Of a stretch of DNA of 64,000 bases, positions 30,070 to 42,064 are shown piece by piece. How positions within the stretch are numbered: the stretch's first letter is position 1; the number at the start of each line of letters is the position of its first letter. The stretch lies in the NCBI RefSeq assembly GCF_900129295.1, contig NZ_FQUU01000007.1:124001-188000 (forward strand). The letters are read 5' to 3'. Both the position numbers and the translations under genes were made by a program. The stretch comes from Flavisolibacter ginsengisoli DSM 18119 (GTDB lineage: Bacteria > Bacteroidota > Bacteroidia > Chitinophagales > Chitinophagaceae). The notes under the pieces were generated by a model. It did no database searches, was not told the DNA's origin, and worked only from the letters and a program-made list of their open reading frames with translations.

Positions 30070-31191
30070 ATGGGAATCAACTACCGGCGCTCTACCAAAA
30101 TATTATTTATTGTCATCAACCTGGTGGCAGCCATTATATTCCTGCTGGCTTGCTGGGCTCCCTACCTTAACCCTCAAAAGTGGTGGGCACTTTCCCTGAT
30201 CGGGCTTGGTTTCGCTTTTATTATAGTGACATTACTGGCGTTTATTTTTTTCTGGCTTGTCTTTAACATCAGGTATATTTTCATTTCACTTATTGCACTC
30301 ACCATAGGATATAAAGCCATCCTGGTTTTCTTTGCTTTTCATAACCCTGATAAATTCGATTATGAGAAGCAAAAGAACACATTAAGAGTAGTACACTGGA
30401 ATGTAGGGCGCTTTACAGAATGGAAACGGAACAATAACAAAGGAAGCCAGACAAGACTGAAAATGATGGACCTGATAAAGGAACAGAATGCCGATGTTAT
30501 CTGCATGCAGGAGTTCTTCCATTCAACGGATTCGGTTTATTACGACAACCTGGATTATATAAGCAAGGAACTGAATTACCCCTATTATTATTTCTCCTGG
30601 GATGGCGATGGCTATAAGCAATGGGTAGGACAGATCATTTTCTCGCGTTTGCCTATCATAGACACCAGTATGGTTCGCTTTCCGGCCCCCAGCATGCCCG
30701 AAGCGTTATTGCAGGCAGATATACTTTTTGGTAAGGACACCATTCGTTTTTATACAACACACCTGCAATCAGTAAGGTTTGGGAAGGAGGATTTTGAACG
30801 CCTTCACCGTATTAAAAAAACGGATGAGACCATGGTGGAAGACTCAAAGAACATTTTTGTAAAATTGAAAAGAGGTGTAGTGAGGCGTTGCATCCAGGCA
30901 GATATGGTCAGGCAGGTCATCTCCACATCTCCCTACCCCTACATACTTACCGGAGATTTTAATGATGTGCCGAATTCCTATACCTATTTTACCATCAGGG
31001 ACCAAGACCTGCAGGATGCTTTCCTGGAAACAGGGCTGGGTGTTGGCCGAACCTATTCCTACATAGCCCCAACACTACGCATTGATTATATTTTCACTAC
31101 CAGGGACTTTGCCATTCGCCAGTTCAACCGGATTATCAAAAATTACTCTGACCATTATATGCTTGTGACTGATGTTGCGCTCAATAAATAA
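30070..31191 (+). CDS. Membrane-anchored endonuclease/exonuclease/phosphatase family protein
   Basis: The product is 373 residues. Three hydrophobic segments in residues about 9-95 anchor it. The EEP domain (about 105-370) contains VVHWNVGRF, the metal Glu in VICMQEFF, YTTHLQSV, the catalytic Asp-Asn in LTGDFNDVPNS and a final SDHYMLVTDV, so all core residues are present. Members act on nucleic acids, phospholipids or inositol phosphates; the membrane location favours a lipid or envelope substrate, which is inference. It lies 121 nt after the second rhomboid and may be part of the same operon. Confidence 0.9.
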   Translation: MGINYRRSTKILFIVINLVAAIIFLLACWAPYLNPQKWWALSLIGLGFAFIIVTLLAFIFFWLVFNIRYIFISLIALTIGYKAILVFFAFHNPDKFDYEKQKNTLRVVHWNVGRFTEWKRNNNKGSQTRLKMMDLIKEQNADVICMQEFFHSTDSVYYDNLDYISKELNYPYYYFSWDGDGYKQWVGQIIFSRLPIIDTSMVRFPAPSMPEALLQADILFGKDTIRFYTTHLQSVRFGKEDFERLHRIKKTDETMVEDSKNIFVKLKRGVVRRCIQADMVRQVISTSPYPYILTGDFNDVPNSYTYFTIRDQDLQDAFLETGLGVGRTYSYIAPTLRIDYIFTTRDFAIRQFNRIIKNYSDHYMLVTDVALNK

Positions 31192-31254
31192 GTAATAGAC
31201 AGTTAAACTATCACTGCTTTTCTTGAGCGCATTTATTTTTCCGGGGCTTTCGAT

Positions 31255-31262
31255 TATCTTTG
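31255..31262 (+). promoter_or_regulatory. Bacteroidota -7 box for the cysS leader
   Basis: TATCTTTG fits TAnnTTTG. It ends 6 nt before the ATG of the polycysteine frame, so initiation at the usual distance would make that frame leaderless or nearly so. No TTG is found at the ideal -33 position, only a T-rich stretch (31236-31240). Confidence 0.5.
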
Positions 31263-31268
31263 AGCCGT

Positions 31269-31322
31269 ATGATCGTAATAGATACCTATACCTTTTCATG
31301 TTGTTGCTGCCAGGCAAACTAA
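31269..31322 (+). CDS. Putative polycysteine leader peptide upstream of cysS
   Basis: This is a 17-codon frame, MIVIDTYTFSCCCCQAN, ending in TAA. Codons 11-14 are TGT TGT TGC TGC, four Cys in a row, ending 50 nt before the cysS ATG. A run of the very amino acid that the downstream synthetase charges is the classic layout of leader-peptide control: a ribosome stalls at Cys codons when Cys-tRNA is scarce and changes the folding or translation of the mRNA. No perfect terminator or antiterminator pair is obvious in the 38 nt between leader stop and cysS; there is only a weak AGG/CCT pairing before TTTTT (31334-31338). Translational control is therefore as likely as attenuation. The -7 box lies just upstream. 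Confidence 0.7.
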   Translation: MIVIDTYTFSCCCCQAN

Positions 31323-31360
31323 CCTTTCTGCATTTTTACGATCCCATTCAATAGTTATTT

Positions 31361-32860
31361 ATGAGTCAACTGAAAGTATATAATTCCTATATAAGAGAAA
31401 AAGAAGAATTTGTTCCCCTGGTAGCAGGACACGTAGGCATGTATGTTTGCGGACCTACTGTAAGTGGCGAAAGCCACCTGGGCCATGCTAGGCCATACAT
31501 CACATTCGATGTGGTTTACCGCTACCTGTTGCACCTGGGTTATAAGGTGCGCTATGTAAGAAATATAACAGATGCCGGCCATTTTGAAGAAGAAGGCCGG
31601 GAGGCTGAAGACAAGATCTCTAAAAAAGCAGTGATTGAAAAGCTGGAACCCATGGAGCTGGTACAGAAATATACCAACCTGTTTCATTGGGCGATGGCTA
31701 AATTCAATATACTGGAGCCAAGCATTGAACCTACCGCCACAGGCCATATCATTGAGCAGATCAATATGATACAGGAGATATTAAAGGCAGGTTATGCGTA
31801 TGAATCAAATGGCAGCGTTTACTTTGATGTAAAGAAATATGCTGCTTCACATGAGTATGGTAAATTAAGCGGGCGTATTGTCGATGACCTGCTTGAAACT
31901 ACCAGGGAACTGGAGGGTCAGGAGGAAAAGCATGACAGGGCTGATTTTGCACTTTGGAAAGCCGCTCCCCCGGAACATATCATGCGCTGGACCAGCCCCT
32001 GGGGTGAAGGATTTCCGGGTTGGCATATTGAATGCTCTGCCATGAGTACCAAGTACCTGGGAAAGCAGTTTGATATTCATGGAGGAGGAATGGACCTTTT
32101 ATTTCCGCATCATGAAAGTGAGATCGCACAAAGTACCATTTGCAACCACATATCACCGGTAAGGTATTGGATGCATAATAACATGATCACCATTAATGGC
32201 CGCAAAATGGGCAAAAGCTATAATAATGTGGTCAAGCTAACTGAAATGTTCAGCGGTGACCATCCTTTGCTGGAAAAGGCTTTTTCTCCAATGACCATTC
32301 GTTTTTTTATCCTGCAAACACATTACCGCAGCACCCTGGATTTCAGTAATGAAGCACTGATAGCCGCAGAAAAAGGATTGAAACGTTTAATGGAAGCCTA
32401 TGAATGGTTAAAGACAGTTGTTATAGATGGACAGGAACAGGGCAGCGGAAATAATAAGGAGTTGGAACAAAAAGTATTAGGCTTACTAGACCAGTTTGAC
32501 GAATTCATGAATGATGATTTCAGTACTGCCAAGGTTTTAGCCAATATGTTTGAACTGGTGCCGGTGATTAATTCCATAAAGGATAAAACCATTGCTTTTG
32601 ATAGCTTATCACCCGGTACCCTGCAGCACCTGCAGTCTAAAATGAAGATCTATATTGAAGATATACTTGGGCTGAGAATAGAGTCCGAAGCAGACAATAA
32701 CAAGCTGAAAGGAGTTATGGATGTTTTGATCACCATGCGAAAGGAAGCCCGCAATAAGAAAGACTGGGCCACCTCTGATAAGATACGCAATCAGCTTGCA
32801 GAAATAGGCATCCAGTTAAAGGATGATAAGGATGGAAATATCAGTTGGATAGTTAACTAA
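31361..32860 (+). CDS. cysS: Cysteinyl-tRNA synthetase
   Basis: The product is 499 residues. The class I HIGH motif is HLGH in [12 protein letters not shown] near residue 37, and the KMSKS loop appears as KMGKS near residue 283. Zinc ligands include Cys in YVCGPTV, Cys in WHIECSAMS and the His/Glu in [11 protein letters not shown]. The C-terminal helical domain (DALR-like, about 360-499) is complete. The enzyme charges tRNA-Cys. It has its own upstream region with a -7 box and the polycysteine frame, and a strong terminator after it, so it appears to be a single-gene, self-regulated unit. Confidence 0.97.
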
Positions 32861-41293: not shown

Positions 41294-42064
41294 TCAATAC
41301 TTTTCCAGTTCCAGGTAAACCGGGCAGTGATCACTATGCTTTACATCAGGATAGATCTCTGCATCTTTAATATAATCACTTAGTGGATCCGTTACACTGA
41401 TATAGTCAATACGCCATCCTTTGTTGGATGCCCTTACAGAAGGAAAGCGCTGGCTCCACCAGCTATATCGGTGGGGTTCAGGGTGAACCTTCCTGAAGGT
41501 ATCCACCCACCCATTGCTATACAATTTATCCATCCATGCCCTTTCTTCTGGCAAAAATCCGGATGTGTTCTTATTACCTGCCGGATTATGTATATCTATT
41601 TCCTTATGAGCAATATTATAATCACCACAAAGCACAAGGTTAGGATGTGTTTTTCGAAGGTCCTGGATATAATCGAAGAATTCTTCCAGCCATTTGTATT
41701 TGTATGATTGCCGTTCATCGCCGGTAGTTCCGGAAGGGAAATAGGCATTGATCAAGCGCAGGTCTCCAAAGTCCAATTGTATCACCCTTCCTTCATCATC
41801 ACTTACCTGGTGACCCGTTCCACATTTCACGTAGTCGGGTTTGATTTTCGTAAATACCGTTACACCACTATATCCTTTTTTCTGTGCACAAAACCAGTGA
41901 TCATGATACCCGAGTTCATTAAATAACTGCACATCCACATCAGTTTGTTGAGCCTTGGCCTCCTGTATGCATATTACATCTGCAGGATGCGTTTGCAGCC
42001 AGTCAATAAACCCTTTTTTAATGGCTGCCCTGATTCCATTCACGTTATAACTGATGATCTTCAT
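41294..42064 (-). CDS. xth: Exodeoxyribonuclease III
   Basis: The product is 256 residues. It is an AP endonuclease/3'-5' exonuclease of the EEP fold: ISYNVNGIRAAIKKGF at the start, metal Glu in VICIQEAKAQ, YFPSGTTGDERQSYKYKWL near residue 110, LCGDYNIAHKEIDIHNP with the catalytic Asp-Asn, and the terminal SDHCPVYLEL. RYSWWSQR is the usual DNA-contact loop. It acts in base-excision repair, complementing the two AlkA-type glycosylases in the window, although these are not adjacent. Confidence 0.95.
   Translation of the reverse strand: MKIISYNVNGIRAAIKKGFIDWLQTHPADVICIQEAKAQQTDVDVQLFNELGYHDHWFCAQKKGYSGVTVFTKIKPDYVKCGTGHQVSDDEGRVIQLDFGDLRLINAYFPSGTTGDERQSYKYKWLEEFFDYIQDLRKTHPNLVLCGDYNIAHKEIDIHNPAGNKNTSGFLPEERAWMDKLYSNGWVDTFRKVHPEPHRYSWWSQRFPSVRASNKGWRIDYISVTDPLSDYIKDAEIYPDVKHSDHCPVYLELEKY

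Follow-up and report, generated by a model that had tools for sequence, protein, structure and literature searches.

Polycysteine leader frames upstream of cysS in Chitinophagaceae as candidate sensors of charged tRNA-Cys

Described cysteine-codon leaders and the cysS locus

In transcription attenuators of the trp type, cognate codons within a leader peptide constitute the sensor. Mycobacteria are said to carry leaderless polycysteine short ORFs before several cysteine genes, which, according to papers citing the 2020 work of Canestrari, reportedly act by attenuation and respond to cysteine, with masking of the downstream start reportedly involved as well; we know of no case in which cysS is a target of these leaders. 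To our knowledge, leader-peptide regulation has been little studied in Bacteroidota, and a literature search, with subscription-only papers lying outside its scope, found no description of polycysteine leaders there. For the cys operons of Actinobacteria, leaders have been described with Cys runs near the stop codon and without a conserved terminator, Rho being suggested as a possibility (PMC1262725), while uORFC-8-2 of Rhodobacterales is a Cys-codon leader upstream of cysS, equipped with a terminator and proposed to sense low Cys-tRNA (PMC8632094).

In this study, we analysed a short frame in a stretch of 64,000 nucleotides, in the following called the window. The preliminary description, which placed a 17-codon frame with Cys codons at positions 11–14 and a preceding -7 box 38 nt before cysS, is exact by sequence:

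31255–31262, plus strand: -7 box TATCTTTG of the predicted promoter, an exact TAnnTTTG, 6 nt 5' of the leader ATG
31269–31322, plus strand: predicted leaderless polycysteine short frame MIVIDTYTFSCCCCQAN, 17 codons, ATG at 31269 and TAA at 31320–31322
31299–31310, plus strand: four Cys codons TGT TGT TGC TGC (codons 11–14), the proposed sensing codons
31323–31360, plus strand: spacer of 38 nt from the leader stop to cysS, no terminator found
31361–32860, plus strand: cysS, cysteine–tRNA ligase (TIGR00435, PF01406), ATG at 31361, the presumed regulated gene

The assignment of cysS is given by TIGR00435 with 451.5 bits (cut-off 340). Its neighbours encode an endonuclease/exonuclease/phosphatase-family protein on the 5' side (PF03372) and an HhH-GPD DNA-repair protein on the 3' side (PF00730), and for neither do we know of a link to cysteine. 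Within the 64 kb, both strands considered, three consecutive Cys residues (CCC) occur in only two ATG frames of up to 45 aa, of which only the MIVIDTYTFSCCCCQAN frame has an exact -7 box 4–7 nt 5' of its ATG. The run does not reach the stop codon directly, being followed by QAN. In the window's own genome four consecutive TGY codons match at 54 sites. Among the 30 of these that were read (at one, L002, the contig ends early and another run was read), 23 sit inside frames of at least 100 aa, and an ATG short frame outside such long frames was found at two sites, the leaders of cysS and cysH. A riboswitch or T-box before cysS was rejected, since an Rfam cmscan of 31100–31500 returned no such family and a single snoRNA hit (E 2.9; 17.7 bits, the cut-off being 50).

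The likeness to the mycobacterial leaders lies in contiguous Cys codons in short frames before cysteine genes, here cysS, cysH and cysE. There, however, the downstream start is reportedly masked, whereas folding of 49 leaders predicts no masking at cysS here, and while the mycobacterial leaders begin at the mRNA 5' end, box spacing predicts the same for 36 of 55 cysS leaders. The sensor codons resemble those of trp-type attenuators, but no terminator was found at cysS. With uORFC-8-2 the present leader shares tandem Cys codons in a short frame that precedes cysS; uORFC-8-2, however, has a pair of Cys codons and two stems and ends in an intrinsic terminator, whereas the leaders in Bacteroidota have mostly 3–7 Cys codons and no terminator was found, and the two differ further in phylum and in the start, which is predicted to be leaderless here (PMC8632094). 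The actinobacterial leaders are similar in the Cys run near the stop, the missing terminator, the pyrimidine-rich spacer and the possible part of Rho, but they precede cys operons and cbs instead of cysS (PMC1262725). The present leader would operate in the manner of these systems, but lacking the terminator of uORFC-8-2 and, by folding, the mycobacterial masking, it was filed under none of them. Since Cys-codon leaders at cysS were already known from Rhodobacterales (PMC8632094), what is new is the occurrence in Bacteroidota, for which we found none described, together with the architecture.

Recurrence and predicted promoter of the cysS leaders

We drew 116 genomes from one family, located cysS in 113 of them and read all 113 upstream regions, the window's included. 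We take the family to be Chitinophagaceae because nine of the regions are identical to named Chitinophagaceae-type records, e.g. of Deminuibacter soli and Segetibacter aerophilus. By a loose rule (ATG, GTG or TTG short frame containing CCC or, within six residues, three or more Cys, up to 300 nt 5' of cysS) a Cys-rich short frame is present in 31 of the 113 regions, the window's genome among them, and by a strict rule (ATG start, CCC, 200 nt) in 27. The latter count compares with a mean of 0.10 in dinucleotide-preserving shuffles (at most 2 in 200), with no such frame on the opposite strand of any of the 113 regions and with at most 4/113 for any residue other than Cys in the same test, so that the initial claim of a Cys run unlikely to stand before cysS by chance is borne out. 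CCCC was found in 18/113 regions and in no shuffle at all; these 18 are the same regions that contain a run of four TGY codons, which is thus in frame with the ATG in 18/18, and a stop codon follows the run directly in 15, the window belonging to the other three. Chance origin of the cysS leader was rejected on the family counts, the shuffles, the opposite strand, the other residues and the window scan, and the Cys-rich leader before cysS is real and recurrent.

Examples from the family are MARYSIYTCCCCCC, MKIFYNTYCCCC and MILSSKYCCCCCC. In the one other drawn genome of the window's genus the leader reads MNAPRLLFCCCC compared with MIVIDTYTFSCCCCQAN, with the Cys residues kept and the remainder drifting. 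This is the pattern the preliminary description had proposed to look for, a Cys-run frame conserved while its other codons drift, and it recurs with the frame in the 31 family regions. Leader peptides have a median length of 14 codons, and their Cys codon usage is mixed (123 TGT, 88 TGC). A second set of 80 named loci from the GTDB species set, nine of them identical to family rows, contains a Cys-rich frame in 28, of which 3 are identical to family rows; counted over whole loci on both strands in ATG frames of up to 35 residues, 24 CCC frames lie before cysS versus 5 elsewhere. The 31 family rows and 24 of the 25 new named rows, leaving out the weak L169, make up the set of 55 leaders used below.

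The distribution is patchy. Named carriers are Deminuibacter soli, Segetibacter aerophilus, Niastella soli, Sediminibacterium roseum, two Ferruginibacter and one Terrimonas assembly, while 82 of the 113 family genomes lack the leader; at 64 of these 82 loci a -7 box lies no more than 70 nt from cysS. In a cysS tree built from the 80 named rows, leader presence (27 rows, again without the weak L169) requires a minimum of 17 gains or losses, or 15 if only well-supported branches are counted, versus 22.7 for shuffled presence, and 6 of 500 shuffles were as low as the real value. From this count we take the leader to be only weakly clustered. Beyond the family, 54 of 111 matching cysS loci from other families of the order and class were read. 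Two of them pass the loose rule, L236 with CCC in a 24-residue frame and L248 with spaced Cys, but both lack a good -7 box, so no convincing cysS Cys leader was found among these 54.

In Flavobacterium psychrophilum, TAnnTTTG occupies positions -12 to -5 relative to the transcript start, and translation initiation is independent of Shine-Dalgarno sequences (PMC9723704). Leaderless mRNAs are uncommon in the phylum, with 5.5% in F. psychrophilum, and for B. thetaiotaomicron about 3.7% of 5' UTRs are given as shorter than 10 nt (PMC7366714). Of the 55 leaders, 38 have an exact TAnnTTYG no more than 40 nt from the start codon, and in 36 of those 38 (36/55 overall) the gap between box and start is 4–7 nt, which places the predicted 5' end 0–3 nt before the AUG. 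Among other short ATG frames upstream of cysS, such a box at 4–8 nt was seen in 1/100, and in shuffled letters in 0.35%. The 17 leaders without an exact box within 40 nt include five (L100, L155, L192, L194, L202) with TATCTTGC at 5 nt, which resembles the SM5 motif TAnnTTGY of F. psychrophilum (PMC9723704). For the window, the transcript start is predicted at about 31267, and the cysS leader would accordingly be leaderless or nearly so.

A second exact -7 box is situated between leader and cysS at 21 of the 55 loci, and some of the cysS transcripts may therefore bypass the leader. This second box, of the TACCTTTG type and seen e.g. at L063, L068, L076 and L079, lies 9–13 nt after the leader stop in 10 loci. 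Elsewhere in the window, a 256-codon frame beginning MKIISYNVNGIRAAIKKGFIDWLQ (41294–42064, minus strand), which presumably resembles exodeoxyribonuclease III, carries an exact -7 box 4 nt 5' of the ATG and is another predicted leaderless gene.

Proposed control of cysS and competing explanations

We propose that the cysS leader is a cis-acting sensor of charged tRNA-Cys acting on cysS, a reading to which we assign a probability of roughly 0.8. RNA polymerase would start 0–3 nt 5' of the AUG, and with such a start ribosomes would load on the RNA 5' end and translate the approximately 14 codons of the leader, 17 in the window. With ample Cys-tRNA the ribosome would complete the leader and exit at the stop codon, while scarce Cys-tRNA would cause it to stall in the Cys run, raising cysS expression and thereby restoring Cys-tRNA. 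Frame, promoter spacing, Cys run, recurrence and drift are read from the sequence, whereas we infer where the transcript starts, that the leader is translated, that ribosomes stall in it and in which direction cysS responds. Several observations argue against the leader model: 82/113 family genomes do without a leader, transcripts from the second -7 box in 21/55 loci would escape control, 17/55 leaders lack an exact box within 40 nt, and the window leader continues with QAN past the Cys run and folds no better than shuffles.

How a stall would reach cysS can only be inferred, since neither a terminator nor masking of the start site was found there. Classical attenuation by an intrinsic terminator between leader and cysS, known for the Rhodobacterales cysS leaders and suggested by the terminator hairpins that the cysE leaders of the family carry, is quite improbable here, as terminator-like hairpins below -6 kcal/mol show no excess over shuffles (6/55 cysS leaders vs 4/55) and no intrinsic terminator with a U-run was found in the window stretch. 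Spacers of the 55 leaders are in general no more structured than shuffles (mean z -0.03, 2/55 below -2). Translational attenuation in the mycobacterial style, in which the leader RNA folds over the cysS start unless a stall opens the fold, would fit a leaderless polycysteine frame as in mycobacteria and the strong pairing of the Cys run with the region around the cysS start in some leaders (L067, L096, L112). Over the 49 leaders folded, however, this pairing was not above shuffles (p 0.15), the start was more open than in shuffles (accessibility 0.58 vs 0.53, p 4e-4), a modelled stalled ribosome hardly shifted it (0.60, p 0.09), and pairing of the spacer with the first 40 nt of cysS was weaker than in shuffles, leaving this mode unlikely. 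Of the control originally suggested, attenuation by a leader peptide, the recurrent Cys-codon leader with drifting surroundings stands, while the classical form is not supported, with no terminator excess and no predicted masking.

Two further explanations dispense with sensing by codons altogether, and we regard both as highly improbable. The TGY run could be a DNA element, for instance TTG repeats serving as the -33 box of a second promoter, with which the second -7 box in 21/55 loci, 10 of them 9–13 nt after the stop, would agree; against this, the runs are in frame with the ATG in 18/18 and mostly end at the stop, 34/55 leaders have no exact second box, and TGT and TGC are mixed. The frame could also encode a working Cys-rich microprotein, binding metal or thiols, given that Cys is conserved and the peptides are short (median 14 codons). 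Yet even between leaders of one genus (MIVIDTYTFSCCCCQAN vs MNAPRLLFCCCC) the sequence outside the Cys run drifts, the Cys residues are mostly adjacent without a fixed spacing pattern, and the frames precede genes for cysteine supply and charging, so this explanation appears just as remote as the preceding one.

For the sensor reading, the least certain step would be Rho-dependent termination in the unstructured, G-poor spacer, blocked by the stalled ribosome. It is the most likely candidate for the next step, from base composition and the lack of alternatives, but we advance it tentatively, at somewhat less than even odds; a stalled ribosome would cover only the beginning of the spacer, which argues against it. 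Spacers of the 55 leaders contain 11% G and 23% C. The difference C minus G is 0.115 in leader spacers (31 loci) compared with 0.050 in the last 60 nt of the 82 loci without leader (p 1e-4), and 0.105 vs 0.050 if the last 60 nt are taken in both groups (p 0.002), a bias that may stem from relatedness or base composition.

The last Cys codons together with the next 18 bases fold at -6.4 kcal/mol, compared with -3.6 kcal/mol in shuffles (55 leaders, p 7e-9), with the Cys codons pairing to e.g. GCAGC or GCAAC just past the stop and the stop codon in the loop. When downstream parts were swapped among 42 leaders, the own partner was better in 26/42 (p 0.08); covariation of this hairpin was not significant in that test, and owing to the small advantage of the own partner a designed Cys-stop hairpin is not proven. 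The window leader has no such hairpin of note. Pairing of the leader 5' end with the spacer is weak overall (p 0.006) and strong in 7/55. In the window, the leader start (31271–31278, GATCGTAA) and the spacer (31336–31343, TTACGATC) are perfectly complementary as an inverted repeat of 8 bases, a pairing equalled in 7/100 shuffles.

Polycysteine frames before cysH, cysE and other genes

The search for cysE, hisS, cysK and cysH covered 26 of the 31 genomes that carry a cysS leader; for cysH it also took in 28 of the 82 without. A polycysteine frame precedes cysH, encoding APS/PAPS reductase, in 21 of 48 family matches, the window's genome included, with 12/22 matches in the 26 genomes with a cysS leader and 9/26 in the 28 without. 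CCC occurs before cysH in 20/48, whereas single-letter shuffles give 0.01 and the opposite strand gives none. The cysH leader of the window's own genome (L434, MKKATMFILMITSNTSNTLDACCCCCNSSCCMQ; G000:C10 ~348978–349079, minus strand, outside the window) stops 65 nt 5' of cysH, and we detected no exact -7 box at distances of up to 60 nt from this frame. In 19 of 23 cysH leaders a -7 box was found, located 11–46 nt from the first ATG, and terminators were seen in 1/23 vs 0/23 shuffled. Outside the family, 2 of 27 loci carry such a frame, L482 (MTHIKQHHSFIKSAGMMCCFCCCC) and L483 (MTPIKQHHSSIASNRMMCCCCCCC), both from one genus in another family of the class, and the cysH leader thus reaches beyond Chitinophagaceae.

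For cysE, 22 strong matches among 30 loci could be considered, 4 of the 26 genomes giving weak matches only; 5/22 carry a polycysteine frame by the rule and 6/22 if the split run of L296 is counted. At all six loci (L286, L290, L291, L292, L296, L299) a GC-rich hairpin follows. The scan detected a clear T-tract behind it in five, and in L299, which it missed, TTATTATTT follows. Although these terminator hairpins are clear, a modelled stall yielded no antiterminator in the cysE leaders, which we consider candidate classical attenuators. Before hisS no polycysteine frame was found in any of the 24 genomes counted out of 26 (two split matches were left out), and within 300 nt 5' of cysK none of the 29 loci read, out of 30, had a Cys frame.

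Taken together, the leaders of cysS, cysH and cysE look like a Bacteroidota set of cysteine-tRNA sensors paralleling the mycobacterial one. The wider proposal, which we hold with some reserve and as slightly less probable than not, is that Bacteroidota evolved their own polycysteine-stalling set for cysS in charging, cysH in sulfate reduction and cysE in cysteine synthesis, an independent counterpart of the mycobacterial system in which the cysS leader would lie at the mRNA 5' end, free of a terminator and probably Rho-dependent. Such leaders in Bacteroidota suggest convergence with mycobacteria, and the cysS leader with its sister frames at cysH and cysE represents a compact, directly testable candidate network for cysteine sensing. 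Control of a tRNA synthetase by its own charging would thereby become predictable from sequence, in frames that fall below the length thresholds gene finders usually apply.

Of 60 other matches to four TGY codons followed by a stop that were read in 16 genomes, 54, among those listed, overlie a frame of at least 120 aa; among the remaining six, L384 precedes cysH and L420 a protein that matches AhpC/TSA weakly, while L394 is not closely followed by any gene. At L406, also one of the six, the polycysteine frame MNNKSFYMTSAFTAVYYRCCCCC has its -7 box at 8 nt and lies 70 nt before a glutamate dehydrogenase, an odd target. By eye, a recurring word like GTAGACTA or TAGTCTACTA was noticed near cysH and cysE promoters (L438, L442, L457, L479, L286, L290), which is perhaps the operator of a sulfur regulator.
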